Assembly (NCBI GenBank): GCA_903875045.1
Contig: CAIQUS010000027.1
Coordinates: 1 to 45,762, forward strand
DNA: 45,762 nt
Direction: 5' to 3'
Source: an uncultured Bacteroidales bacterium
Lineage (GTDB): Bacteria; Bacteroidota; Bacteroidia; Bacteroidales; FEN-979
The first letter of the stretch is position 1. Each line of letters starts with the position of its first letter. This document shows positions 28,702-42,132 of the stretch, piece by piece. A program made the translations under genes and the position numbers. Below the pieces are notes generated by a model. The model was not told the DNA's origin and did no database searches. It saw only the letters and a list, made by a program, of their open reading frames with translations.

Positions 28702-30408
28702 ATGAACAGAAAAATTATTTATCCGATATTTTCCCGGCACCTGATCTATTGTTTCATGGCGGTAATTTCCCTCCATTTTTTAACAGGATGTTCATATTAT
28801 TTCAAGGTAGAAACGAAAACCAGGGTCACAGCCGAAGATATCCGGTGGGCGGATTTTGATCACAAATACATGATTCTTCACCATGGAGCAACGGCCTTGA
28901 ATTTGAGCAAACCTGAAATCACCGATAATATGGTTTCCGGAAATTTGTCCATGTTGCCGAATTCCCGGTTACAATATAAATCCACAGATCCGGGGCGCGC
29001 AAACAGGTATAAAAAAGTTGACATAGACTTGATCATGGATCAGGTACATGTTTATTTGCAGGATTCCATTCTATCGGAAATACAGAATGGGGACAATATC
29101 AAATTTGATGTTTCCGCCATCGGGAAAATGGAGACCTATCAAAAAGCCAAGGGCCGGACGACAGCATCCTGGGTTATTCCTGCCATTGGAGGGACAGTTC
29201 TGGCAGCTGCCGGGGTTGTAATTATCGTTGCCCTGACAAAATCATCCTGTCCGCTGGTTTATATTAAACAAGACAGCAGTTTCACCTTTAGCGGGGAGAT
29301 TTTCGGAGGCGCTATTTATTCCTCACTCGAACGACATGATTATCTGCCACTGCCCGGTTTTGAACCCACAAAAAACCGGTATGAGCTGAAGATTACCAAC
29401 GGGTTGCCTGAAATCCAATATATAAACCTTGCCGAGTTATGGATTGTAAGCCATCCGCAGGATGTGAAGGTGCTGCCCGACCGCTGGGGGATGGTCCATA
29501 CCATCAGGAAACCGGAACTGCCGGACGAAGCGCTTTCTTCGGCAAAATCCGACATTCTCCCGCGCATCAGCATGAAAGACCGGACCTGTTTCCAGTTTGA
29601 TGAAGCGCCCGCCCTAACCGGTGATACAAGTGCATTCAATACAGCCGTGCTGACTTTTACGGTTCCTGCCGGCGCAGATACCGGCAAACTGGTAATCAGC
29701 GCGGGAAATTCGATGTGGGGGGATTATGTATTCGGGGAACTCACCAAATTATTCGGAAACCGGTACGAAGAATTTATCAGGTGGCAGGGAAAGCGCTCGC
29801 CTGAAAAAACGTTGCAATGGCAAAAAGACCAGCACTATCCTTTGATGGTCTGGCTGGAAACCGGCACCGGCTGGAAATTTGTTGATTATTTTGATCTGAT
29901 CGGCCCGCTGGGTGCGAGGGATATGGTGATGCCGGTCGGTTTATCTGAAGCACTATTCACAAAAACCCCGGATAACGGGAGATCAGTAAGGATCAAACTT
30001 GAATCGGGGTTTAAATTCTGGGACCTCGATTACGCGGCCATGGACTTTTCGGGTGATACGCTGATAACGGTCGATCGTGTTCAACCTGCCTCTGCCATAA
30101 ACGAAACCGGGCAGGATGTTATGCAAATGCTTTCAAAAAATGACAACCGGTATTACATTCAGGAGAAAACAGGGGAGGAGGGATTGATCATTTATAAGGA
30201 TAGTCCTGAAATTCCTGGGATGAAAAAGTCGCTGTTTCTGCACACGAAGGGATACTATACCCATGTAAGAAACTATCCCAACCCGCCCGACAAAAAACAA
30301 CTTCAGACAATGCTGGTTCCGGGAAAGTTCAGCCGGTTTTCAGCTGACAAGTATGCAGAATTTATGGAGAAAAAGATGGTGTTTGTTTCTGATCCAAGGT
30401 TGCCATGA
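28702..30408 (+). CDS. Large lipoprotein with internal hydrophobic segment, function unknown
   Basis: The 568-residue protein has a lipoprotein signal (HFLTGC, Cys 30). A single strongly hydrophobic stretch lies at about residues 157-177 (WVIPAIGGTVLAAAGVVIIV). The N-terminal part is beta-rich and the C-terminal half has predicted alpha/beta content. I recognise no family. Its TGA stop overlaps the ATG of the radical SAM gene (ATGA at 30405-30408), which argues for translational coupling and therefore for a connection to the biosynthetic genes downstream. Confidence 0.7.
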   Translation: MNRKIIYPIFSRHLIYCFMAVISLHFLTGCSYYFKVETKTRVTAEDIRWADFDHKYMILHHGATALNLSKPEITDNMVSGNLSMLPNSRLQYKSTDPGRANRYKKVDIDLIMDQVHVYLQDSILSEIQNGDNIKFDVSAIGKMETYQKAKGRTTASWVIPAIGGTVLAAAGVVIIVALTKSSCPLVYIKQDSSFTFSGEIFGGAIYSSLERHDYLPLPGFEPTKNRYELKITNGLPEIQYINLAELWIVSHPQDVKVLPDRWGMVHTIRKPELPDEALSSAKSDILPRISMKDRTCFQFDEAPALTGDTSAFNTAVLTFTVPAGADTGKLVISAGNSMWGDYVFGELTKLFGNRYEEFIRWQGKRSPEKTLQWQKDQHYPLMVWLETGTGWKFVDYFDLIGPLGARDMVMPVGLSEALFTKTPDNGRSVRIKLESGFKFWDLDYAAMDFSGDTLITVDRVQPASAINETGQDVMQMLSKNDNRYYIQEKTGEEGLIIYKDSPEIPGMKKSLFLHTKGYYTHVRNYPNPPDKKQLQTMLVPGKFSRFSADKYAEFMEKKMVFVSDPRLP

Positions 30409-31577
30409 TTACCAGATATACAGCGCATCCCCAACAGATAATTACCGGAATCAGCAAAAAGCTGATCCGGCTCCGGGTTGGTTTTCACATGGCCAAAGTT
30501 GTTTACAGCCAATGCAAAAATGCGGTTTTGTGCATGAAAACACTTGAAAAGCTTGCGCAGCACCGGCGGCAATATGCAGGAGAAAAAATTAAGAAAATCG
30601 CTAAGGTTGACGGGAAATATTACTGGGATATGTACATCCCGGGATATAAATCTCAGGCCATAACCAATTTCTTTGACGGTGAAACAACCAGGACCCTGGG
30701 AACAGATAAAAAAAAGACCCGTTTCACCAACATACTTGTTGCCATGACCAAGCAATGCCCTTTGAAATGCGAACATTGCTTTGAATGGGATGCCCTGAAT
30801 GGCAGGGAAACGCTTTCGTTACCGGAAATAAAAACCATCGTTGGCAAGTTTCAGGAAATAGGGACCGGGATCATTCAGTTAACCGGCGGGGAGCCTATGA
30901 CGAAAGTGGACGACCTTGTTGAAATATTGCAATCGTCGAAACCGGGATCGGAATTCTGGATACTTACATCCGGCTACAATTTAACCCCGGAAAATGCCAA
31001 AAGACTTAAAAATGCAGGGCTTACAGGCGTGGTTGTCAGCATGGACCATTATAACCCCGATGTTCACAACCTGTTCCGTGGATCCGGAAAATCGTTTTCA
31101 TGGGTTCAATCGGCGGTTAAAAATGCGATTGAGGCGAACCTTGTCACCGCATTGACAATTTGCGTATCAAAATCATTTGCCACAGAAGCAAATCTGATGA
31201 ACTATGCCGATCTGGCCAAAAACATGGGTGTTTCGTTCATTCAGCTCCTGGAGCCAAGGGCTGTCGGACATTACGAAGGGCAGGATGTTTCCCTGGATCC
31301 CGGGCATGAAAAAATACTGGAAGATTTCTTTTTAAAAATGAATTACCAGCGTAAATACCGGAAATATCCGATCATCATTTATCATGGATATTACCAGCGT
31401 AAAACCGGATGTTTTGGTTCCGGGAACAGAAGTTTGTACGTAGATACCGATGGCGATTTGCATGCATGTCCGTTTTGTCAGACAAAAATGGGCAACGCCT
31501 TATACGACAACCTTAATGATGCCATCGAACAACTGGTTGCCACAGGTTGCCACAGGTATGCAGCTTCAATTTTTTAA
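30405..31577 (+). CDS. Radical SAM protein with SPASM-like C-terminal cysteines
   Basis: The 390-residue protein carries the radical SAM cluster motif CxxxCxxC (C118, C122, C125 in KQCPLKCEHC) and GGEP (161-164). A C-terminal set of cysteines (GCFGSG, CPFC, GCHRY) suggests an auxiliary [4Fe-4S] cluster of the SPASM/twitch type. Such enzymes modify peptides, or act on small molecules as in the MoaA or HpnH-like branches. No precursor peptide is seen nearby, so a small-molecule or lipid substrate is more likely. The ATG overlaps the lipoprotein stop and the next gene starts 13 bp after its stop. A perfect 10-bp tandem duplication at 31535-31554 sits in its last codons. Confidence 0.85.
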   Translation: MITRYTAHPQQIITGISKKLIRLRVGFHMAKVVYSQCKNAVLCMKTLEKLAQHRRQYAGEKIKKIAKVDGKYYWDMYIPGYKSQAITNFFDGETTRTLGTDKKKTRFTNILVAMTKQCPLKCEHCFEWDALNGRETLSLPEIKTIVGKFQEIGTGIIQLTGGEPMTKVDDLVEILQSSKPGSEFWILTSGYNLTPENAKRLKNAGLTGVVVSMDHYNPDVHNLFRGSGKSFSWVQSAVKNAIEANLVTALTICVSKSFATEANLMNYADLAKNMGVSFIQLLEPRAVGHYEGQDVSLDPGHEKILEDFFLKMNYQRKYRKYPIIIYHGYYQRKTGCFGSGNRSLYVDTDGDLHACPFCQTKMGNALYDNLNDAIEQLVATGCHRYAASIF

Positions 31578-31590
31578 TGAATTGAACAAT

Positions 31591-34500
31591 ATGAAAAAGT
31601 TTGACATTACCCTGGAATCGCCTTTGCACGTTTCAGCGGAAAAAATAAAAACAATCGGTCAGATCCTGTATGATGATTTGCCCGGAAGAGAGGAAAATGG
31701 CCGTATCATCCTGAGCCATGTTGATACAAAATACACGGAGGTGAGTTTGCAGCAGCTCCGGTTTATCGTGGCAAATCTGCTGAAGGATTTTACCCGGCAT
31801 GGAATCAGTTACCGGGAAACCGTGGTGTTGTTGAACTTCCCCGGGTGCAATGAAATGTACACCGCGTTGTTGTTTCTGGCATTGACCACCCGTGGTTGCA
31901 GGGTTTTCATGCCCATGTTTTCTGAAACAGCTGAATTTGACCACTGGCTTGAGGCGGCCAATGTAAAACACATCATCTTGCCCGAAGGTGAGGTGATGAG
32001 CCTGGAGGGGCACGACAAAGAAAAGGATTCGGTGAAATCCATCCGCAGGATTGCCAGCTCAGGAAAGATCCCGGTCCTTGATATCCTTGCTGATTTTGGG
32101 TTCATGGAAAACCTCCCGGAAAAGTGTTTGCCTGATGAGCCAATGACGGAGGAAGTAATAACAGCATTGCATCAGGTACAGCCATCGGATGAAGCGCTGA
32201 TCATCACTACCTCAGGAACGACAGGCCGTTCAAAGCTGGTGGTTTACACCCACGAAGCTTATTGGCTCAATTGCATGGCCTGGCAAGAGGCTGGATTTTA
32301 TGCGCAGGATTTGCTTGGTGGAACAGGATTTACCCCCATGTTCATGCACACCATGGGAATCAGGGCTTTTCTGAATGCATTGTGGACCGGTTCACCGGTG
32401 TGCCTGATCATTACCGAATGGTTTACCCGGAAACCGGAAACCGTAAGGTATTTGCTGATAAAAATGAAACCGGCACACATCACCGGCGGACCTGCTGTTT
32501 ACAATGCATTTCTTGAACTTTACAGGTTATATCCTGAACTTAAATCAACACTGTCGCCATATTTGAAAACCCTTGTTTCCAGTGGGGCCGGATATAATTC
32601 CACAACGGCACAGGAGGTTTTTAATGCCATCGGGCTTCAACTCCACAATGCCTTCGGAACCACGGAAACCCAGCAGGTTTTTTCTACCCTGCTGAGCAAA
32701 CCCGGCATCTTCGGCCATGGATTGCTGCCTCTTGGAAACCCACTGCCTGGCGTTTCTGCCGGACTGATCCGGTCAGAAGCCGGCAATGATTGTTACCAAC
32801 TTTACCTGCGTTCGGTGTTTGGCCACAAGTATTGCATCGGGGAGGAGGATGGACAGGAATATTTTGATACCGGTGATCTGGTAACGCTTGTTGACGGGCA
32901 AAGCCTCCTGTTTACCGGTCGTGCCGGCCGGGATTTTTTCAAAGACTGTTTCGGGGTGAAAATCCCCATTGGAGCGTTGAAAGAGTATTACCACGGATTA
33001 TATGGCCAGATTCTCCATGCCGAGTTTTTTCCAATGGTCAATTTCCCCGGGCTATCTTCACTTTTGTTTGTGGAGGAACCTGATCAGCAGGAGGGGATGG
33101 TAACCAATTCAACCACCCTGAAAAAATATGCAGGTATCATTGAAAGCATCAACGACCGGTTAAAGGAGCGGATTGAACCATTTGAATTTTATCACCGGCA
33201 TATATGCAGAATTGCGGTTGTAAACCAGCCGCCGCCTTGTACCCGAAAGGGAACCGTTTCATCAAAAGAGATTCGTCTGGCTTGGCAGGAGTTGACAGAA
33301 CGCCTGCAGGATTGCCGTAAAGATTCGAACGGCATAGAGATTACCGAAAGCCATTACCTGTCGACCGACAAATATTCAAGATACATCAGTCCGCAGATCG
33401 GCATGATGCTTTCAGCCTTAAAAATGAACCAGGTTTTTCATCGCGGGGAAAAAGATTCCCTGTTCACCTTTATCCGGGGAAAAGAGACCGCGATACTCGA
33501 TCTGGCGGGAGGTTATGGAACAAACCTGATTGGCCATTCAAATCCGCTGATCACCGAAGCCATCACCGGGTTTTTATCATCGGGTAAAATTGCCTTGAAT
33601 AATCAGTTAAGTATTCCATATTACACCGGGCTGCTGGCCGAAAAACTCAGTCTGCTGGTCGGACAGAAAACAGGCAAAAGTTTCAAAGTATTGTTTGGAA
33701 ACAGTGGATCCGAGGCCATGGAGATCGCGCTTCATCACGCGTTGTTTGAATGGAAAAAACGGATCGGGAAAATGCGTGATTTCCAGTTTGAGAAGTTCGG
33801 GAGCCTCACATACCTGGATGTGGCATCGATCTGGCAAAGGAATGATGAAATTATCCGGAGGGCAAAAGTACGTCTGATTGCCTTATCCGATGCTTTTCAC
33901 GGGCAAAGTACCGGTGCACGGAGCGGACTGGGCAATCAGAAAAAACGCACCGCTTTTTCAAATCTCCCGAAAATTGAGGCGATGTTTGTGAATGACCGCG
34001 GAAAAGAGTGGCAAAACCGGATAAAGGAGATCATAGAGAACTCCTTTGTTCAGTTGGAAAAAGTTGTGCAAACCAACGGTCATGCGGAGGTTGAAACATT
34101 CAGACTATGCACCGTTATCGCAGCCATTGCCGAACCGGTTATCGGCGAAGGTGGTGTGAGAAAGGTTGACCCGGAAGTGCTGGGGCACCTTGCCGGGTTT
34201 GAATTCCCGATGATTGCCGATGAAATACAGTGCGGATTGGGACGGACCGGGCAGTTTCCTGCCTGTACAAAAGCCGATTATTATCTCTTTGGAAAAGCGC
34301 TGGGTGGAGGTGTCGAGAAAATATCGGCTGTGCTGATAGAGAGCCAGCGGTTTCGGTTCGATTTCAGTGAACATTATGTCAGCACCTTTGCAAATGGCGA
34401 ACTGGCGGCCCTTGCCGCGCTCAAAACACTCGAAATCGTTGAAAACGAAAACCTGCCCGAACAGGCATTCAAGGCCGGGAATTACCTGTTGGGTCGGATA

Positions 34501-35982
34501 ACCCGGCTACGTGATCAATATCCTTCGGTGATCCTGGATGTGAAAGGAGAAGGCCTTATGCTGGGGGTTTATTTCAACCAGGCCTGTGGTTTGGAAAACG
34601 TGATGCTGCGGGCTTTGTTTAACACCGAAAAAGCCGGATATCTCTTTTCCGCATGGTTTTTTCACAAACACAACATCAGGGTTTTTCCAACCCTTTCGGC
34701 GCCTGATACCCTGCGTGTCGAGCCATCAGCCTATATCACAGAAGCGGAAGCCAACCATTTTTGCCAGGCACTGGAAGATCTTTGTCATATCCTTGCTGAA
34801 AAAAGGTTGTATGATCTTTTTTCATTTTTGATGGATGATGATCCCTTTGATGATCATAAAGGCGCCAAACCCGAGATCGGCCACTATCAGACAACTCTTG
34901 AAGTGCCGGTTGCAGGGGCAACGAAAGTTGCATTCCTGGCCCATTTTGTCGACCCGGTGAACGAGTTGCGCATGCTGGAGCCCGACCTGTGCCGGGCATC
35001 GGATACAGGTTTGCGAATCCTTTTCAACCGCATGCAACTGCTCATGGAGATGAAACCTTTCCGGTTGATCGCGAACAATCTTTTTAACGGGAAGATCCAT
35101 TTTTCCTTTTATGTATTGCCGGTTGATTCTGCAGAACTGGAGCATCTGCACAAGAGCGGAAAAACCCGGCGGGTTATTTCGAAGATCCAGGAAACCATTG
35201 ACCTGGCTGCAAAAGACGGAGCTTCCATCATCAGCCTTGGCGGTTATACCTCCATCCTGACTTGTAACGGGCTGTCGCTGGCCGAACCTGCCGGATGCCG
35301 TATCATCACAGGAAATACCCTTACGGCCGCTTCTGGATTGACCAACCTTCGGAAATATCTTTTTTCAAATCCTGAGTTTAAAAAGCCTGCCCGGATTGCC
35401 ATTGTCGGTGCCACCGGCAACATCGGTCAGGTGATAGGGGAGATGATCAGTGAGCAAGGGGATATTTGCAGCAGTTTGCTCCTGGTGGCACGCTCGGCAA
35501 AACGGCTGGAGGCCATCGCCAGGGAGTTTGAACGGAAAAGGGAAAACAGCATCAGGATCGAAACAAGCACTGATTTGTCGGTGCTTAAAACGGCCGATAT
35601 TCTGATCATTTGCGCCAACACCAACGATCCGCTTATATACCCGCATCATATTTCAAAAGAAAAGCCGGTGTTAATTTCCGATCTTTCGGTTCCATCAGCC
35701 CTGGCCGGCGAAACGGCATCGATGTCCAATGTGATCAGCATGCCCTTTTCAGCTTACGTTTGTATGCCCGATGATCCACGGGCGGTAATCAGTTCCTTGT
35801 CGCCGGCTGGAACGGTTTTTTGCTGTGCGGCCGAGGCCATGCTGGGAGGACTTGAACCCTGTCCGTTTCCATTAAAAGGGCATCTCTTGCCCGAATCGTT
35901 GAGGGGGATAACAGAAATGGCCGAAAAACATGGATTGTTCAATCACCTGGGAAGAATAAAGAGTTATAAAGTAACCATTTAA
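31591..35982 (+). CDS. Trifunctional AMP-ligase / class III aminotransferase / AAR-like acyl reductase
   Basis: The start is ATG 31591 (MKKFDITLESPL), giving 1463 residues. Domain 1 (1 to about 570) is an AMP-forming acyl/aryl-acid ligase: TTSGTTGRSK (206-215), FGTTETQQ, DTGDL (426-430), GRAGRD (443-448) and the C-terminal lysine K553 in RKGTVSS. Domain 2 (about 600-1070) is a class III aminotransferase: AGGYG, D877 in ADEIQCGLGRTG and PLP lysine K902 in FGKALGGG. Domain 3 (about 1095-1463) resembles cyanobacterial long-chain acyl-ACP reductase: LGGYTSI, TGNTLTA, Rossmann GATGNIG (1273-1279), and CCAAEAM with C1412 at the position of the proposed acyl-binding cysteine. No carrier-protein domain is visible. 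A plausible sequence is acid to acyl-adenylate, then aldehyde, then amine. I know of no characterised protein with this order. Confidence 0.85.
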   Translation: MKKFDITLESPLHVSAEKIKTIGQILYDDLPGREENGRIILSHVDTKYTEVSLQQLRFIVANLLKDFTRHGISYRETVVLLNFPGCNEMYTALLFLALTTRGCRVFMPMFSETAEFDHWLEAANVKHIILPEGEVMSLEGHDKEKDSVKSIRRIASSGKIPVLDILADFGFMENLPEKCLPDEPMTEEVITALHQVQPSDEALIITTSGTTGRSKLVVYTHEAYWLNCMAWQEAGFYAQDLLGGTGFTPMFMHTMGIRAFLNALWTGSPVCLIITEWFTRKPETVRYLLIKMKPAHITGGPAVYNAFLELYRLYPELKSTLSPYLKTLVSSGAGYNSTTAQEVFNAIGLQLHNAFGTTETQQVFSTLLSKPGIFGHGLLPLGNPLPGVSAGLIRSEAGNDCYQLYLRSVFGHKYCIGEEDGQEYFDTGDLVTLVDGQSLLFTGRAGRDFFKDCFGVKIPIGALKEYYHGLYGQILHAEFFPMVNFPGLSSLLFVEEPDQQEGMVTNSTTLKKYAGIIESINDRLKERIEPFEFYHRHICRIAVVNQPPPCTRKGTVSSKEIRLAWQELTERLQDCRKDSNGIEITESHYLSTDKYSRYISPQIGMMLSALKMNQVFHRGEKDSLFTFIRGKETAILDLAGGYGTNLIGHSNPLITEAITGFLSSGKIALNNQLSIPYYTGLLAEKLSLLVGQKTGKSFKVLFGNSGSEAMEIALHHALFEWKKRIGKMRDFQFEKFGSLTYLDVASIWQRNDEIIRRAKVRLIALSDAFHGQSTGARSGLGNQKKRTAFSNLPKIEAMFVNDRGKEWQNRIKEIIENSFVQLEKVVQTNGHAEVETFRLCTVIAAIAEPVIGEGGVRKVDPEVLGHLAGFEFPMIADEIQCGLGRTGQFPACTKADYYLFGKALGGGVEKISAVLIESQRFRFDFSEHYVSTFANGELAALAALKTLEIVENENLPEQAFKAGNYLLGRITRLRDQYPSVILDVKGEGLMLGVYFNQACGLENVMLRALFNTEKAGYLFSAWFFHKHNIRVFPTLSAPDTLRVEPSAYITEAEANHFCQALEDLCHILAEKRLYDLFSFLMDDDPFDDHKGAKPEIGHYQTTLEVPVAGATKVAFLAHFVDPVNELRMLEPDLCRASDTGLRILFNRMQLLMEMKPFRLIANNLFNGKIHFSFYVLPVDSAELEHLHKSGKTRRVISKIQETIDLAAKDGASIISLGGYTSILTCNGLSLAEPAGCRIITGNTLTAASGLTNLRKYLFSNPEFKKPARIAIVGATGNIGQVIGEMISEQGDICSSLLLVARSAKRLEAIAREFERKRENSIRIETSTDLSVLKTADILIICANTNDPLIYPHHISKEKPVLISDLSVPSALAGETASMSNVISMPFSAYVCMPDDPRAVISSLSPAGTVFCCAAEAMLGGLEPCPFPLKGHLLPESLRGITEMAEKHGLFNHLGRIKSYKVTI

Positions 35983-35990
35983 CCATCACC

Positions 35991-37073
35991 ATGCCTTCAC
36001 TGTACAATTTTGGTTTATCGCAGGAAGATCCTCTTACGGAGATCAAAGGGCTGCATCTCACAGATGGCGATTCGCTGTTATGTATCGCCGGCGCCGGGGA
36101 GGTTCCGCTTAGCATAGCCGCGTTGAAAGACGTATCTGTTGTGGCCGTGGATGTTTCCGAAAACCAGCTTCGTTTATGCCGGATCAAGCAACACGCGGCA
36201 GTACTTTTTGAACCTCCTGTCGCAGCAGGATTTCTGGGATACAGGCAAATGGACAGTAAAAGGCGGGCTAATTTGTTTGATAAAAAAATCGTCCCGTCTT
36301 TGGAAAAAGAAGATTGTGATTTCTGGAAAAAAAATCGATCAACCGTTGAAAAAGGGGTGATCCATGCCGGAAAGTTTGAACAGTTTATAGGCAAAGCCTC
36401 CCTTCCGGCCCGAATGGTGATCGGGAAAAAGAACTTTTACCGGTTGTTTGAATGCTGTTCAACAGAAGAACAGGAGGAGGTGTTTGACCGTTTTTTTGCC
36501 GGAATAGTTCTTAAAACGATCTTTAAAACGGTATTTCATCCCAGGATTTATAAAAACAGGGGGATTGATTCAACCGGAATGCAGCATCAGAAGGATGGAA
36601 ATATCGGGGATTTCTTTTTCAACCGGTTCCGCAATTTCTGTTGCAGCACCCCTGCCAGGGATAATTATTTACTGCAATATATGTTTTTCAGGAAATCCCT
36701 GTTTCCGGGCGCCCTGCCAGAGTACCTTAAACCGGAAAATCATGAAGCATTTCTGCAACGGCAACATCATATTTCGTTTGTTCCATCTTCCATGGAAAAC
36801 ATGTTAGCACAGGCCTTGCCCGGCCAGTTCAATAAAGTGCTGTTATCTAACATCGGCGATTGGATGTCGAGGGAGGAAATGGCAAAGTTGTTCACACAAA
36901 TCCAGGAGAAAACCAATCCGGGCAGCCGGATGGTATTGCGGTATATTTATCTTGATCATCCAGTTCCGGAATCTGCATCATTTTTAAAACCAGATCACGG
37001 GTTCGGGATGGAACTCATCAAAACAGACCGGTTTCCATTCAGCTCAATCGTACCAATTAATATTTTAAAATGA
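35991..37073 (+). CDS. BtaA-like (DUF3419) S-adenosylmethionine 3-amino-3-carboxypropyl transferase
   Basis: The 360-residue protein fits the DUF3419/BtaA family. A SAM-binding Rossmann start is visible at about 26-60 (GDSLLCIAGAGEVPLSIAAL, then VVAVDVSENQL with D54), and later NIGDWMSREEMAKL and PGSRMVLRY segments are typical. BtaA moves the 3-amino-3-carboxypropyl group of SAM onto diacylglycerol in betaine-lipid (DGTS) synthesis. Some relatives have other acceptors. The partner BtaB methyltransferase is not in the window, so the product here may be a homoserine-type headgroup without trimethylation, or something different. It begins 8 bp after the trifunctional gene, so it is probably in the same operon. 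Confidence 0.8.
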   Translation: MPSLYNFGLSQEDPLTEIKGLHLTDGDSLLCIAGAGEVPLSIAALKDVSVVAVDVSENQLRLCRIKQHAAVLFEPPVAAGFLGYRQMDSKRRANLFDKKIVPSLEKEDCDFWKKNRSTVEKGVIHAGKFEQFIGKASLPARMVIGKKNFYRLFECCSTEEQEEVFDRFFAGIVLKTIFKTVFHPRIYKNRGIDSTGMQHQKDGNIGDFFFNRFRNFCCSTPARDNYLLQYMFFRKSLFPGALPEYLKPENHEAFLQRQHHISFVPSSMENMLAQALPGQFNKVLLSNIGDWMSREEMAKLFTQIQEKTNPGSRMVLRYIYLDHPVPESASFLKPDHGFGMELIKTDRFPFSSIVPINILK

Positions 37074-37087
37074 TGAATCTTTATAAT

Positions 37088-37307
37088 TTTTTTACCACTA
37101 AGACACTAAGTACACTAATGTACACTAAGTTAAGGTTAACCAGCCTTCTTAGTGATTCTAAGTGATCTTAGTGCCTTAGTGGTTTTTAAGGGATGAATGT
37201 TTGCAGTTTTTTACCACAAAGGCACTAAGAGCACTAAGGTACACAGAGTTAAGTTCTAATCAGTCCTCTGAGTGGTTCTAAGTGATCTAAGTGCCTTAGT
37301 GGTTTTA
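37088..37307. repeat. Two tandem ~100-bp palindromic (MITE-like) elements
   Basis: Copies at about 37088-37187 and 37207-37307 each begin TTTTTTACCAC(T/A)AAG and end CTTAGTGGTTTT or similar, giving near-complete terminal inverted repeats with CACTAAG-type internal units. They fill the gap between the BtaA-like and GNAT genes. They could form large hairpins and reduce read-through. No open frame is present. Confidence 0.85.
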
Positions 37308-37328
37308 TTAGTATTAAATTGATTCTGC

Positions 37329-38441
37329 ATGACGAACTATCACATAAAACCCATTGATTCATCTTACGGCACAACGATGCTGGAGATCCTGCGTGGCTCG
37401 CCGATCAATACCGACAGGATGACCATCTGCTTTGACCGGCAACCCGATATTTTTGCACTGGCACGATGCAAATACGATGATTTCTATTACCAGGGACTGT
37501 TTGACGGGGAAATCCTGAAAGGGTTCGGAATGGTCGGATATCATACTGTTGCGGTGAATGGCAAACCAACCAAAGTCTTTTGTGCCCGTGATCTTTACAT
37601 TCTTCCTGAGGCCAGAGGTCAGGGGTTTGTGGCAAAAAGCACAGAAAACCATTTCCGCGAAAACCAGCATCTTTCACCGGTTGGATACGGATTGATCATG
37701 CAGGGAAATGAAGCAAGCATGCGGTTTATCGGAAAAAGGCCTGAGCGCAATCAATATTCACCGCTTTCCAGGATAATCAACCAGCTGGTTATCAATACAA
37801 TTTTATTGACACTGCCGGTTTCCCTGAATCCCGATTATCGTATCCGGCGGGCACAAACGGATGATATCCCGGCCATTGTCAAACTTCTGAACAACGAACA
37901 CAAAGACCGCCTGTTTGGAAATATTTACACGGAAGCCTCTTTTCCCGGCTATTTACAAAAAAACAGCGGGTTGTCCATCTCAGATTATTACCTGGCGTTC
38001 AACAGGAGCGGTCAGTGTTGCGGTGTTTGTGCAGCATGGGACATGAGCGGGATAAAACAAACCCGTGTACTGAAATATGGTAAGGCATTTCTCCCGGCAA
38101 AGATCGCCTACAAATCACTGTCGGTTTTATTTAGACTTCCGGCATTGCCAAAAACCGGTGATTATTACAGGGAAGTTAACATCACGGATTATGCGGTGAA
38201 GGATCGCGATCCTGTTGTGTTGAATGCCTTGTTAAAGGCTGTTTACAACGATTACCGGCGGCTTGGCTTTCATTTCATGGTTTGGGGAAGTTCGTTGGAT
38301 GACACGATGTTAAGAGCTGCCAAAGGGTTCATGTATAAAAAAATTATTTCTAACATTATTCTTTTTTCAACGGAAGGCAAATGGCTAGAGGAGGGGGCGG
38401 TGAAAAACCAGTTGCCGTATATTGATATATCAGCGATTTGA
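37329..38441 (+). CDS. GNAT family acyltransferase (two-domain size)
   Basis: The 370-residue protein has an N-terminal GNAT core with the acyl-CoA loop LPEARGQGF (R96-G-Q-G-F100). The second half (from about 190, YRIRRAQTDDIPAIVKLLN) reads like a second, degenerate GNAT module. The length fits tandem-GNAT proteins rather than a simple acetyltransferase. In the cluster context it could N-acylate the amine or aminocarboxypropyl group, but the acyl donor and acceptor are inferences. It follows the palindromic elements, so it may be transcribed with the upstream genes or from its own start. Confidence 0.8.
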   Translation: MTNYHIKPIDSSYGTTMLEILRGSPINTDRMTICFDRQPDIFALARCKYDDFYYQGLFDGEILKGFGMVGYHTVAVNGKPTKVFCARDLYILPEARGQGFVAKSTENHFRENQHLSPVGYGLIMQGNEASMRFIGKRPERNQYSPLSRIINQLVINTILLTLPVSLNPDYRIRRAQTDDIPAIVKLLNNEHKDRLFGNIYTEASFPGYLQKNSGLSISDYYLAFNRSGQCCGVCAAWDMSGIKQTRVLKYGKAFLPAKIAYKSLSVLFRLPALPKTGDYYREVNITDYAVKDRDPVVLNALLKAVYNDYRRLGFHFMVWGSSLDDTMLRAAKGFMYKKIISNIILFSTEGKWLEEGAVKNQLPYIDISAI

Positions 38442-38464
38442 CGGAGGGGAGGTTAGCATTAAAT

Positions 38465-38566
38465 AGTCACAGGGTCACAGGGTCACAAGGTCACAGGGTC
38501 ACAGGGTCACAGGGTCACAGAGTTACCTGGTCACCTGGTCACCTGGCCACTTGACCACTTTGCCAC
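38465..38566. repeat. GGTCACAGG-type 9-bp tandem repeats
   Basis: About eight copies of GGGTCACAG, then variants GGTCACCTG, fill most of the GNAT-SDR gap. The run ends about 13 bp before the SDR start codon. No spacers and no gene. Confidence 0.85.
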
Positions 38567-38578
38567 AAATTCATTCTT

Positions 38579-39373
38579 ATGAAAACTATACTTATCACAG
38601 GAGCAACATCAGGAATCGGCCTGGTTATTGCGAACCAGCTGCATCAAAATGGTTATAAGGTTTATGGCACAAGCCGGATGCCGGAAAAATTCAGGACAAA
38701 ATTTCCGTTCGAAATCCTGGAACTGGATATTACCTCCGAAGAATCTATTCAAAAATGTATGGCCACCCTTTTGGCCAAAACCAGCACCATCGATGCGCTG
38801 ATCAACAATGCCGGTATCGGTGTTTGCGGTTCGGCCGAGGAGACCTCCATCGAACAGGCGTATAAACAGATTGAAACGAATTTCTGGGGAGCTGTAAAAA
38901 TGACGAGGGCCGTCCTTCCTTTTATGCGGAAGCAACGTTTTGGAAAGATTATTACGATAGGTTCTCTTGCCGGGATTATCGGGGTACCCTATCAAAGTTA
39001 TTATTCTGCCTCAAAGCATGCGATTGAAGGGTTTTTTAAAACCTTGCGCATCGAAGTCCGCCCCTTTAACATTAAAATCTCTGTGATTGAACCGGGATTT
39101 TTCAAGTCAAATCTGCATCATACTTTTGAATATGCACAGCCGGTCATTCCGGATTACGACAATTTACGGAAAAATGCCCTGGCAGTGTTAAACGATTCCA
39201 TCGAAAAAGCACGGACACCCGAACCCATTGCACGGATTGTTTTAAAGATTATGAAATCACAATCCCCTGATTTCAGTTATCGGGTCGGGAAAAACTCCTG
39301 GCTGGCACCCTTTCTGCAATTCCTGTTTTTCAGGGTGTATGAGTTCGGGGTGAGAGTAAAGTTTATGTTGTGA
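38579..39373 (+). CDS. Short-chain dehydrogenase/reductase
   Basis: The 264-residue classical SDR shows the NAD(P) motif TGATSGIG (T7-G14), NNAG (76-79), catalytic S129 and the YSASK dyad (Y142, K146). The sequence after the Tyr-Lys dyad (RIEVRPFNIKISVIEPGFFKSN) suggests the acyl-dihydroxyacetone-phosphate reductase/17-beta-HSD-like branch, so a lipid carbonyl is plausible. It is the last gene of the same-strand run starting at 27650 and may complete the predicted aldehyde/amine lipid pathway. No membrane anchor is obvious. Confidence 0.85.
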   Translation: MKTILITGATSGIGLVIANQLHQNGYKVYGTSRMPEKFRTKFPFEILELDITSEESIQKCMATLLAKTSTIDALINNAGIGVCGSAEETSIEQAYKQIETNFWGAVKMTRAVLPFMRKQRFGKIITIGSLAGIIGVPYQSYYSASKHAIEGFFKTLRIEVRPFNIKISVIEPGFFKSNLHHTFEYAQPVIPDYDNLRKNALAVLNDSIEKARTPEPIARIVLKIMKSQSPDFSYRVGKNSWLAPFLQFLFFRVYEFGVRVKFML

Positions 39374-39911: not shown

Positions 39912-40119
39912 TACCGGGTTTTGTTGACGGATGGTATCGAATCGATTGAAATCAGATAAAAACCGGTGAAACGGGGATATAAATCGGTCAAGCAAAAAAA
40001 CAGACCCTGCTTTGTTTGAACTCTTAAGTAAGATTTCAATAGTATCTTTAGCCACATTTAATTTGGAACACGAAGGGAAAAAAATATCAGGAGATTCACA
40101 ATTAGTACTTACATTTGTA

Positions 40120-42132
40120 ATGAGTTACACCGGACAACCCATCAGCAAACTCAGGCTTCCCACCCCGGAATTAAAAGAACACACACATAAAAACATGGAA
40201 ACAACTAAAGCAATTGCTGAACTGGAGCGGGGAGTTTATTCAGCCCTGGAGACCTATTCCAATGTTCACCGGGGCAGCGGTCACTACTCGATGGTGACTA
40301 CGCATTTGTTCGAGCAGGCCCGGGACATTGTGCTGGAATACCTGCGCCTGGACAAAGGAAAATACACGGTTATTTTTTGCTCGCAACGAAGTGCTGTTTC
40401 ACTCACGAAACAACTTGACCCTGAGAATTATCAACTTCTGTCGGACCTTGACATTGGCCTCCATATTGGTGTAAGAGCTTTGGCGGTGAAAAGAAACAAG
40501 TTGCCGGGAGGCACTCCTTCTCTGGTCGGTGGAGGGACGACCAAACTTGTTTCCAAAGAGTGGATAATCTGGGCTGATATTCCCGACAGGTTCGAGGCAG
40601 GCACGCCGGCTATTGTTAATATCATCGCCTTTGCCAAGGCATTGAGACTGGTTCAGCAATCAGGAAAAAATCTTTTCTCGGATTGTATCTCTGAAAAGCT
40701 TACTGCCAGCAAAATATTGTACCATGACGAGTTTGAGAAATACGCCGGCCGGGAATTGCTGGTTGAACTCAGGCAGGCCCTGATAGGCCGCAATGTTCTT
40801 GTTCCAACAATTGCGGGGACCAGCAAATTTATCAATCTTGACAACAGCGCCAGCACACCGACATTCACGCCGGTTTGGAACGCATTCCGGCATGCATGGC
40901 ATCAGTCGGAACAAGTAAAGCAAGAGATTATTCAGGAGGTAAAATCAATTTGTGCAGGCTTTCTGGGTGCCCCCCTGGCTGCTTATGATGTGGTATTTAC
41001 CTCCAATACTACCGAAGCCATAAACCTTGCGGCCGAGAGTCTGAGCCGTGAATCCAATGATGATGCCGGGTCAGTTGTCCTCAACACACTCTTTGAACAT
41101 TCCTCGAACGATTTGCCGTGGCGCATGTTTCCAAACTATTCTCTTATCCGTCTGTTGGTAAACGATGAAGGCTTTGTGGACCTGAACGAGCTGGAAACCC
41201 TGCTGGTCTCATATAACCAAAAGAGTAAGTACGGCAGGAAACGGATCAGGCTTGTTGCTGTAAGCGGGGCATCGAATGTGCTGGGCGTATGCAACAATTT
41301 GGCGGAGATAAGCCGGATCGTTCACCTGCATGGAGCGCACCTGCTGGTGGATGCTGCACAATTGGTCGCACACCGCAAGATCGATGTTGAAATGTGCGGA
41401 ATTGACTATCTCGCCTTTTCAGCGCATAAGGTTTATGCACCCTTCGGGTGTGGTGTACTGGTGGTTAGAAAAGGGATGCTTCGTTTCAATTCCGACGAAC
41501 TGGAGTTGATCCGGTCATCCGGGGAAGAAAACGCGGGGGGCATCGCAGCTTTGGGCAAGGCCCTTGTGCTTTTGCAGCGGATTGGTATGGATATTATCCG
41601 GGAAGAAGAACAGGTTTTGACAGGGCGGGCTTTGCCGGGCCTGGCGAAAATACCCGGGCTCAGGATATATGGGATAAAAGATCCGGAATCGCCGGGTTTT
41701 TCCCACAAAATTGGTGTCATTGTATTCGACCTGAAGAATAAAATGCCCAGCCGGGTGGCCAGGCAATTGGCTATTCAGAGTGGCATCGGTGTACGCTCCG
41801 GTTGTCATTGCGCGCATATCATCATCAAGCACCTGCTGCACATCAGTCCCTTCCTTGAACGTTTCCAGCGACTGATTCAAACCTTGTTTCCGAAGTTCAG
41901 GTTTCTTGGACTTGTGAGAGTGAGCATGGGCATCGAAAACAGCGCAGAAGATGTTGACAAGTTGATTGACGCTCTGGGTCAAATTGTGAATTCCTCACGG
42001 GACTCACTGGTAAACAAATCTGCTATCGGAACACCCATTTTAACGAAGGCGGAAGTAGATCAGCAGATAAAAGATTTCGTGATTGCTTCGGCTGTGAAAG
42101 TATATTCCACTGCGGGTGGAGATGCATCATAA
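40120..42132 (+). CDS. Class V aminotransferase (cysteine desulfurase-like) with degenerate N-terminal copy
   Basis: The 670-residue protein starts at ATG 40120 (MSYTGQPISKLRLPTPE); METTKAIAEL at 40195 is an alternative. Residues 1 to about 210 match the N-terminal and C-terminal parts of a class V enzyme (SNVHRGSGHYSMVTT, then GGGTTKLVSK and RFEAGTPAIVNIIAFAKAL). The central PLP/lysine region is missing, so this is a shrunken, inactive copy. From about 248 a complete class V domain follows (FINLDNSASTP ... LAFSAHKVYAPFGCGVLVV, PLP lysine K437, then SGCHCAH). The reaction could be cysteine desulfuration or a related C-S/transamination reaction. It may belong to the same accessory region as the SDR gene upstream. 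Confidence 0.8.
   Translation: MSYTGQPISKLRLPTPELKEHTHKNMETTKAIAELERGVYSALETYSNVHRGSGHYSMVTTHLFEQARDIVLEYLRLDKGKYTVIFCSQRSAVSLTKQLDPENYQLLSDLDIGLHIGVRALAVKRNKLPGGTPSLVGGGTTKLVSKEWIIWADIPDRFEAGTPAIVNIIAFAKALRLVQQSGKNLFSDCISEKLTASKILYHDEFEKYAGRELLVELRQALIGRNVLVPTIAGTSKFINLDNSASTPTFTPVWNAFRHAWHQSEQVKQEIIQEVKSICAGFLGAPLAAYDVVFTSNTTEAINLAAESLSRESNDDAGSVVLNTLFEHSSNDLPWRMFPNYSLIRLLVNDEGFVDLNELETLLVSYNQKSKYGRKRIRLVAVSGASNVLGVCNNLAEISRIVHLHGAHLLVDAAQLVAHRKIDVEMCGIDYLAFSAHKVYAPFGCGVLVVRKGMLRFNSDELELIRSSGEENAGGIAALGKALVLLQRIGMDIIREEEQVLTGRALPGLAKIPGLRIYGIKDPESPGFSHKIGVIVFDLKNKMPSRVARQLAIQSGIGVRSGCHCAHIIIKHLLHISPFLERFQRLIQTLFPKFRFLGLVRVSMGIENSAEDVDKLIDALGQIVNSSRDSLVNKSAIGTPILTKAEVDQQIKDFVIASAVKVYSTAGGDAS

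Follow-up and report, generated by a model that had tools for sequence, protein, structure and literature searches.

A single-chain ligase–aminotransferase–reductase gene followed by a DUF3419 gene in Bacteroidales: a candidate operon for a nitrogen-bearing lipid

In the biosynthesis of tambjamine YP1 in Pseudoalteromonas tunicata, PtTamA, a fusion of an ANL ligase and an acyl carrier protein (ACP), and PtTamH, an aminotransferase fused to a reductase of the acyl-ACP reductase (AAR) type, have been shown in vitro to convert a C12 acid to the C12 amine, using NADH and L-Glu (PMC9594044). PigE from prodigiosin biosynthesis has been reported to reduce a thioester besides transaminating (PMC8341465). 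Here we examine a 45,762-nucleotide stretch (hereafter the window; contig CAIQUS010000027.1) from the 5.96-Mb assembly GCA_903875045.1 of an uncultured Bacteroidales bacterium, in which one gene, C (31591..35982, plus strand), encodes an ANL ligase, a class III aminotransferase and an AAR-type reductase in a single chain of 1463 residues. C is followed on the same strand by D (35991..37073), a DUF3419 gene encoding a predicted 3-amino-3-carboxypropyl transferase, and by E (37329..38441), whose product is GNAT-like. Judged from sequence, C and D, often together with E, may make up an operon that directs synthesis of a nitrogen-bearing lipid, converting an acid to an amine, transferring an aminocarboxypropyl group to it and N-acylating the result. 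We give this reading a probability of roughly 40%.

The domain structure of C is supported by Pfam, by motifs and by matches in the PDB. Pfam identified AMP-binding (9e-25, residues 53–396), Aminotran_3 (8.7e-43, residues 634–1037) and a Rossmann domain. The ANL adenylation domain (approximately 31591..33315, plus strand) contains a TTSGTTGRSK loop, GTTE, DTGD and lysine 553, which we take to be the named ANL motifs, the lysine being of the A10 type. In the class III aminotransferase domain (approximately 33373..34800, plus strand) we find Asp877-Glu878 and lysine 902, the expected pyridoxal phosphate lysine, and in the AAR, or thioester-reductase, domain (34891..35979, plus strand) a GATGNIG cofactor loop of the GxxGxxG type and Cys1412; the roles of these residues are presumed ones. 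The aminotransferase part had CrmG as its top PDB match (142.9 bits), followed by PigE (139). A profile built from the C-terminal 363 residues matched PigE (4ppm, 1.1e-10) and the cyanobacterial long-chain acyl-ACP reductase (6jzq, 1.3e-9), and in the PigE match Cys1412, the second Cys of an FCC sequence, aligned with a Cys of PigE. The AAR label given to C in the original prediction rests on these two matches, and its other domain calls for C, as well as those for D, were reproduced by Pfam. The start of C was set at 31591, where the longest frame would give 31450, because close homologues start at that residue or at most four residues from it.

C resembles PtTamA and PtTamH in its predicted ANL activation, its AAR-type reduction, for which a Cys is the proposed catalytic residue, and its class III transamination towards a fatty amine (PMC9594044). 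C differs from the pair in that its three catalytic domains lie in one chain with no fused ACP, and in that a DUF3419 gene, often with a GNAT-like gene, is found downstream. PigE likewise combines an AAR-type reductase with a class III aminotransferase, but in its 861-residue chain the reductase match (80–337) precedes the aminotransferase match (577–772). The PigE family model NF053554 was the best NCBIfam match of C at 239.6 bits, against a curated cut-off of 850, and membership of C in the PigE family was rejected. Since PtTamA and PtTamH together perform the same chemistry, and PigE is reported to reduce a thioester and to transaminate, the most likely course for C is from acid to amine. 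Taking its domains and motifs together, we consider it highly probable that the single chain of C carries a fatty acid through to the corresponding amine. For C, the earlier proposal that an acyl acid is activated, reduced and transaminated has good support from homology, the tambjamine enzymes included (PMC9594044). If it does act in this way, C could find application as a biocatalyst.

Related fusions were encountered on other replicons. A Leisingera plasmid gene (L145:13875-18062) encodes, like C, an aminotransferase and an ANL domain (by Pfam) and an AAR-like region (by tblastn match span) in one protein, but in the permuted order aminotransferase–AAR–ANL. Its neighbours are annotated as lipoprotein-sorting and MMPL proteins, and no DUF3419 gene is annotated in that stretch. 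A Photobacterium plasmid stretch (L144:6925-21032) carries an ACP (by Pfam) and an aminotransferase–AAR protein, together with genes that appear by eye to be ketosynthase-like, SDR (short-chain dehydrogenase/reductase) and MMPL-type, and is perhaps a separate fatty-amine cluster. On a 3.7-kb contig of G652 (L140:91-3746), the gene for an 836-residue aminotransferase–AAR protein overlaps a FemAB-like gene.

We examined how widely C occurs and what accompanies it. Some match to C was found in 145 of 149 relatives, and those partial matches that were inspected covered the aminotransferase part. Full-length C was present in five, namely the source genome itself (G000), G001, G008, G014 and G019. 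A scan of contigs for C gave one locus (L002), which is that of G008, a member of the same genus. In all five genomes the order is C-D-E. A search of 393 genomes of the order with an AAR profile (E ≤ 1e-8) retrieved four, consisting of the source genome and three others (G840, G919 and G854) whose fusions of 1425–1467 residues are 39–42% identical to C and are followed by a D homologue (37% identical). C and D are thus adjacent in 8/8 of the fusions found, and C, D and E in 5/8, the eight loci representing some three to four lineages (the five close relatives form one set, and G840 and G919 belong to the same genus). Genes C and D are separated by 8 bases in four loci, by 39 in G014, 297 in G840 and 139 in G919, and overlap by 4 bases in G854. 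As regards scattering of the homologous genes, the neighbourhood is conserved for C and D, in part for E, and not for the flanking genes A, B and F described below.

The aminotransferase Asp-Glu pair and lysine 902 are retained without exception in the eight C homologues (39–80% identity), as are Cys1412 and the cofactor loop of the reductase, and 325 of 1463 positions are invariant. The ligase motifs are kept in seven, with GTTE and the A10-type lysine kept across all eight. Downstream of C and D in G854 lie genes for FabA-like, ketosynthase, SDR and ACP proteins. This points to a dedicated acyl chain in that organism, and may explain why its ligase is altered. That ACP gene is the one present among the loci scanned: no PP-binding (ACP) domain was found in C by the Pfam scan, and a short-frame motif scan of the window and eight loci gave four matches, none of them ACP-like. 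As the search detected no ACP gene within the cluster of the window, the thioester carrier for C would be CoA or the housekeeping ACP.

D matched DUF3419 in Pfam with 162.6 bits (2.1e-47; cut-off 28.2). A search of a phylum sample with a D profile gave matches in 25 of 395 genomes, and profile searches of the PDB with D and with E gave nothing significant. BtaA also belongs to the DUF3419 family. It is named as the enzyme for betaine lipid (PMC10491745). The BtaA–BtaB system has in common with D the family and the expected transfer of an aminocarboxypropyl group from S-adenosylmethionine (SAM). Unlike that system, D lies outside the methyltransferase-linked group and has no methyltransferase nearby. 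Counting distinct DUF3419 proteins, gathered in a comparison whose profile omitted the G670 sequence, a methyltransferase gene lies within 1500 bases in 0/23 of D's group as against 18/19 of the other. Three of these partners were scanned and are methyltransferases by Pfam; no library model names them BtaB, a label that we give by context. In two trees (arbitrarily rooted and without a characterised BtaA) the methyltransferase-linked group splits off with support of 100/100 and D falls outside it. The second tree places D in one group with its counterparts from the E-less C-D loci and from the D-E pairs of G209, G382 and G701, again at 100/100. The first tree held 23/23 rows of D's group and 11/19 of the methyltransferase-linked group; an open reading frame (ORF) filter removed G283 (L073), and L059, L060 and L061, which matched in part, were excluded. 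The second held six of those 11 rows, 6/10 rows of a UbiA-linked group and three new rows, with a long-branched Rhizobium row omitted; the G670 protein was included in both. D as an ortholog of the methyltransferase-linked proteins was rejected on the trees and the neighbouring genes, and the description 'BtaA-like' for D holds at the level of the Pfam family and not for that group. We regard transfer of an aminocarboxypropyl group from SAM by D as probable.

The UbiA-linked DUF3419 group (loci L066-L072, L076, L142 and L143) has no methyltransferase partner and appears to form a lipid cluster. Neighbours that were scanned include UbiA, PPDK_N/PEP-utiliser and AMP ligase proteins at L067, an HMG-CoA reductase at L068 and a phosphatidylserine decarboxylase at L066, and those at the remaining loci were judged by eye. 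GNAT-like genes lie near DUF3419 in part of this group; five were scanned, two of them scoring above the Pfam cut-off and the other three matching weakly. A Rhizobium plasmid run (L148:3805-10143) has genes annotated as KASIII, oxidoreductase, MBL, CoF synthetase and DUF3419, along with an unannotated 368-residue protein with no Pfam match.

E had no significant Pfam match of its own, the best GNAT E-value being 0.12, and its assignment comes from homologues. A profile of five E sequences detected the corresponding proteins of the D-E pairs (1e-67, 4.8e-58 and, in G701, 1.5e-70) and, with 3.1e-17, 2.6e-6 and 1.4e-9, proteins at loci L137, L138 and L139, the first of which was also found with the E of the window alone (1.5e-13). 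Through the L137 protein, E is linked to that of L065 (match between the two, 3.4e-46), which is Acetyltransf_1 at 9.3e-9. An F/I-D-R-x-P signature is common to this DUF3419-linked family. By homology, E is a GNAT family member, so that the GNAT label given to it earlier stands through its homologues and not through its own Pfam score. In the three fusion loci where E is not beside C-D, homologues occur elsewhere in two genomes, on another contig in G854 (4.5e-95 and 1.5e-23) and as a weak match in G840 (1.9e-6), and none was found in a search of the G919 genome.

The AAR, DUF3419 and GNAT-like genes are also found together in a second arrangement in other Bacteroidota. In G342, the gene order is GNAT, a homologue of cyanobacterial aldehyde-deformylating oxygenase (ADO; PF11266, 52.1 bits, cut-off 28), AAR and DUF3419. 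Strong AAR matches were present in four of 145 relatives of G342 (itself, 44%, 44% and 40% identity), and all four carry this operon (L065:6087-10061, L137:7322-12205, L138:7852-12857 and L139:7905-12877), which in three of them contains or adjoins a fatty-acid desaturase gene. In cyanobacteria, AAR and ADO together make alkanes; here the pair is accompanied by a predicted SAM side-chain transferase. The oxygenase homologue appears to retain its expected metal ligands, which we take to follow the pattern E, ExxH, E, ExxH. Because the second operon carries the ADO homologue, the combination of AAR, DUF3419 and GNAT-like genes recurs with two different aldehyde-using enzymes. These counts come from a phylum-wide AAR search with 72 matching genomes, of which G000 and G342 were kept and 70, whose best scores of at most 38.4 bits covered a portion of the profile, were set aside on score as probable Rossmann matches, and from a search among relatives of G342 with 49 matching genomes, of which the four and G652 were kept and 44 set aside.

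From the gene order, domains, motifs and neighbourhood, all of which were observed, we infer the following reactions, together with the chain length and the thioester carrier. The ligase of C would adenylate a long-chain acid, its reductase domain would give the aldehyde, and its aminotransferase domain would convert this to a primary amine, R-CH2-NH2. D would then move the aminocarboxypropyl group of SAM onto the amine made by C; the chances that this amine is its acceptor seem evenly balanced. E would acylate the free amino group that is trimethylated instead in the BtaA–BtaB pathway. That E acylates at all is about an even bet, its acceptor and donor being deduced from the same context. The product would be a two-tailed N-acyl, N-alkyl diaminobutyrate lipid without glycerol or phosphorus. 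Two acylations of an amino acid give ornithine and glutamine aminolipids. Those lipids (olsA, glsB) are aminolipids without a diacylglycerol backbone, as the proposed product would be (PMC6298996), but the latter would be made from an amine and a SAM-derived side chain. The wider proposal of a class of membrane aminolipids based on 2,4-diaminobutyrate, with a fatty-amine tail alkylated by the SAM side chain and the other tail set as an amide by the GNAT, is doubtful.

Several observations weigh against the lipid operon. No ACP is fused to C or was found near it in the window, and PtTamH required acyl-ACP and did not accept C12-CoA (PMC9594044). The G854 homologue is altered in two ligase loops, with SGTSED for SGTTGR and TKD for TGD. 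E is not beside C-D in three of the eight loci (G840, G919 and G854). D-E pairs occur in G209, G382 and G701 without C alongside, and the 72 genomes with an AAR match in the phylum search, assuming that it used the same draw as the D-profile search, include neither G209 nor G382 (the AAR searches did not extend to G701), so that D must use another acceptor in these pairs. Pfam lists DUF3419 as of 'unknown function', D matched none of the NCBIfam models, the trees included no characterised BtaA, and the AlphaFold models of D and E, made from two-sequence alignments, were of low confidence (pLDDT 36.8 each).

The patchy occurrence of the cluster, in 5/149 relatives and, by AAR profile, 4/393 genomes of the order with the source genome counted in both, raises the possibility that C and D, with or without E, make a diffusible, single-tailed natural product. 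This would be an alkylamine amino acid to which D adds the aminocarboxypropyl group and E a short acyl group such as acetyl, the group that GNATs often transfer. Characterised relatives of C (TamA/TamH and PigE) serve secondary metabolites (PMC9594044, PMC8341465), and tambjamine likewise uses a C12 amine. On the other hand, visual inspection of the ORFs flanking the five close loci, only some of them domain-scanned, revealed no recognisable exporter or resistance gene; those nearby include a possible DNA-binding protein (L002) and signalling proteins (L036). We consider a diffusible product unlikely.

Membership of D in BtaA's family would also fit a reaction on diacylglycerol as with BtaA, giving a homoserine lipid whose amine is acylated by E, with the amine of C a separate product. 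The D-E pairs without C agree with this, since they would be expected to draw on a widely available metabolite as acceptor. However, D lies outside the methyltransferase-linked group, which splits off at 100/100, and it follows C in every fusion locus, linking it to the product of C, so that a diacylglycerol acceptor appears improbable. That C, D and E are adjacent through shared regulation only and belong to separate pathways, as the absence of E beside C-D in three loci and the coming and going of F, A and B might suggest, is very improbable given the unbroken C-D adjacency down to 39% identity and the existence of the separate AAR-DUF3419-GNAT operon.

Were the lipid operon confirmed, two known chemistries, conversion of a fatty acid to an amine and aminocarboxypropyl transfer from SAM, would be joined in one compact operon, an undescribed lipid would be predicted in Bacteroidales, and the DUF3419 branch without a methyltransferase partner would gain a testable function. 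Under the wider proposal of a membrane aminolipid class, DUF3419 enzymes would serve as a general platform, their product being either trimethylated by BtaB or acylated by a GNAT, and those linked to AAR would take acceptors that come from fatty aldehydes. In line with the original prediction, which knew of no described pathway with this gene set, no such cluster was found in the open-licence literature searched, a result that is not proof of absence.

The original prediction had comprised six same-strand genes, and all six ORFs are indeed on the plus strand. In addition to C, D and E, they are A (28702..30408), encoding a lipoprotein with no Pfam match, B (30405..31577), a radical SAM protein with a CxxxCxxC motif (Radical_SAM, 3.4e-23), and F (38579..39373), an accessory SDR oxidoreductase (adh_short, 3.6e-48), Pfam agreeing with the earlier domain calls for the latter two. 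The tight spacing noted there was confirmed for A/B (ATGA overlap), B/C (13 bases) and C/D (8 bases), but the run is looser at D/E (255 bases) and E/F (137 bases). Two palindromic repeat units (37088..37306, plus strand) occupy most of the D/E gap. D and E overlap in the four close relatives by 8, 29, 29 and 4 bases (the start of E in G001 being placed by homology), leaving no space for such units. The 17-base core of the repeat, allowing up to two mismatches, has 37 copies in the source genome against five for a reversed control.

The flanking genes proved to be loosely associated. Matches to A occur in 20 of 149 relatives, in seven over most of its length, compared with five for full-length C, and a specific tie of A to C was rejected on the spread of A. 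An A-like gene lies near C in four of the five close loci, in two with only about 23% identity. Among ten A loci beyond those of the window and G008 (L165-L174), four carry B (L166, L167, L169 and L173) in genomes without full-length C, and B is present in three of the five of these loci that have A over most of its length. The A-B pair is common but not fixed, and A and B are probably not part of the pathway. F adjoins the cluster in 2/5 close loci, the window and G001. A six-gene biosynthesis cluster was rejected, A and B occurring without C and F being variable; what stands of it is the C-D core, often with E. In the window the neighbouring genes A and B span 28702-31577, and such pairs of a lipoprotein gene and a radical SAM gene occur both with and without the amine cluster. 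B scored 52.7 bits with the rSAM_w_lipo model TIGR04133, below its cut-off of 425. Further along the window, 40012-42132 encodes a cysteine-desulfurase-like protein of 706 residues, the first 270 or so of which resemble, by eye, a second, degenerate desulfurase half.

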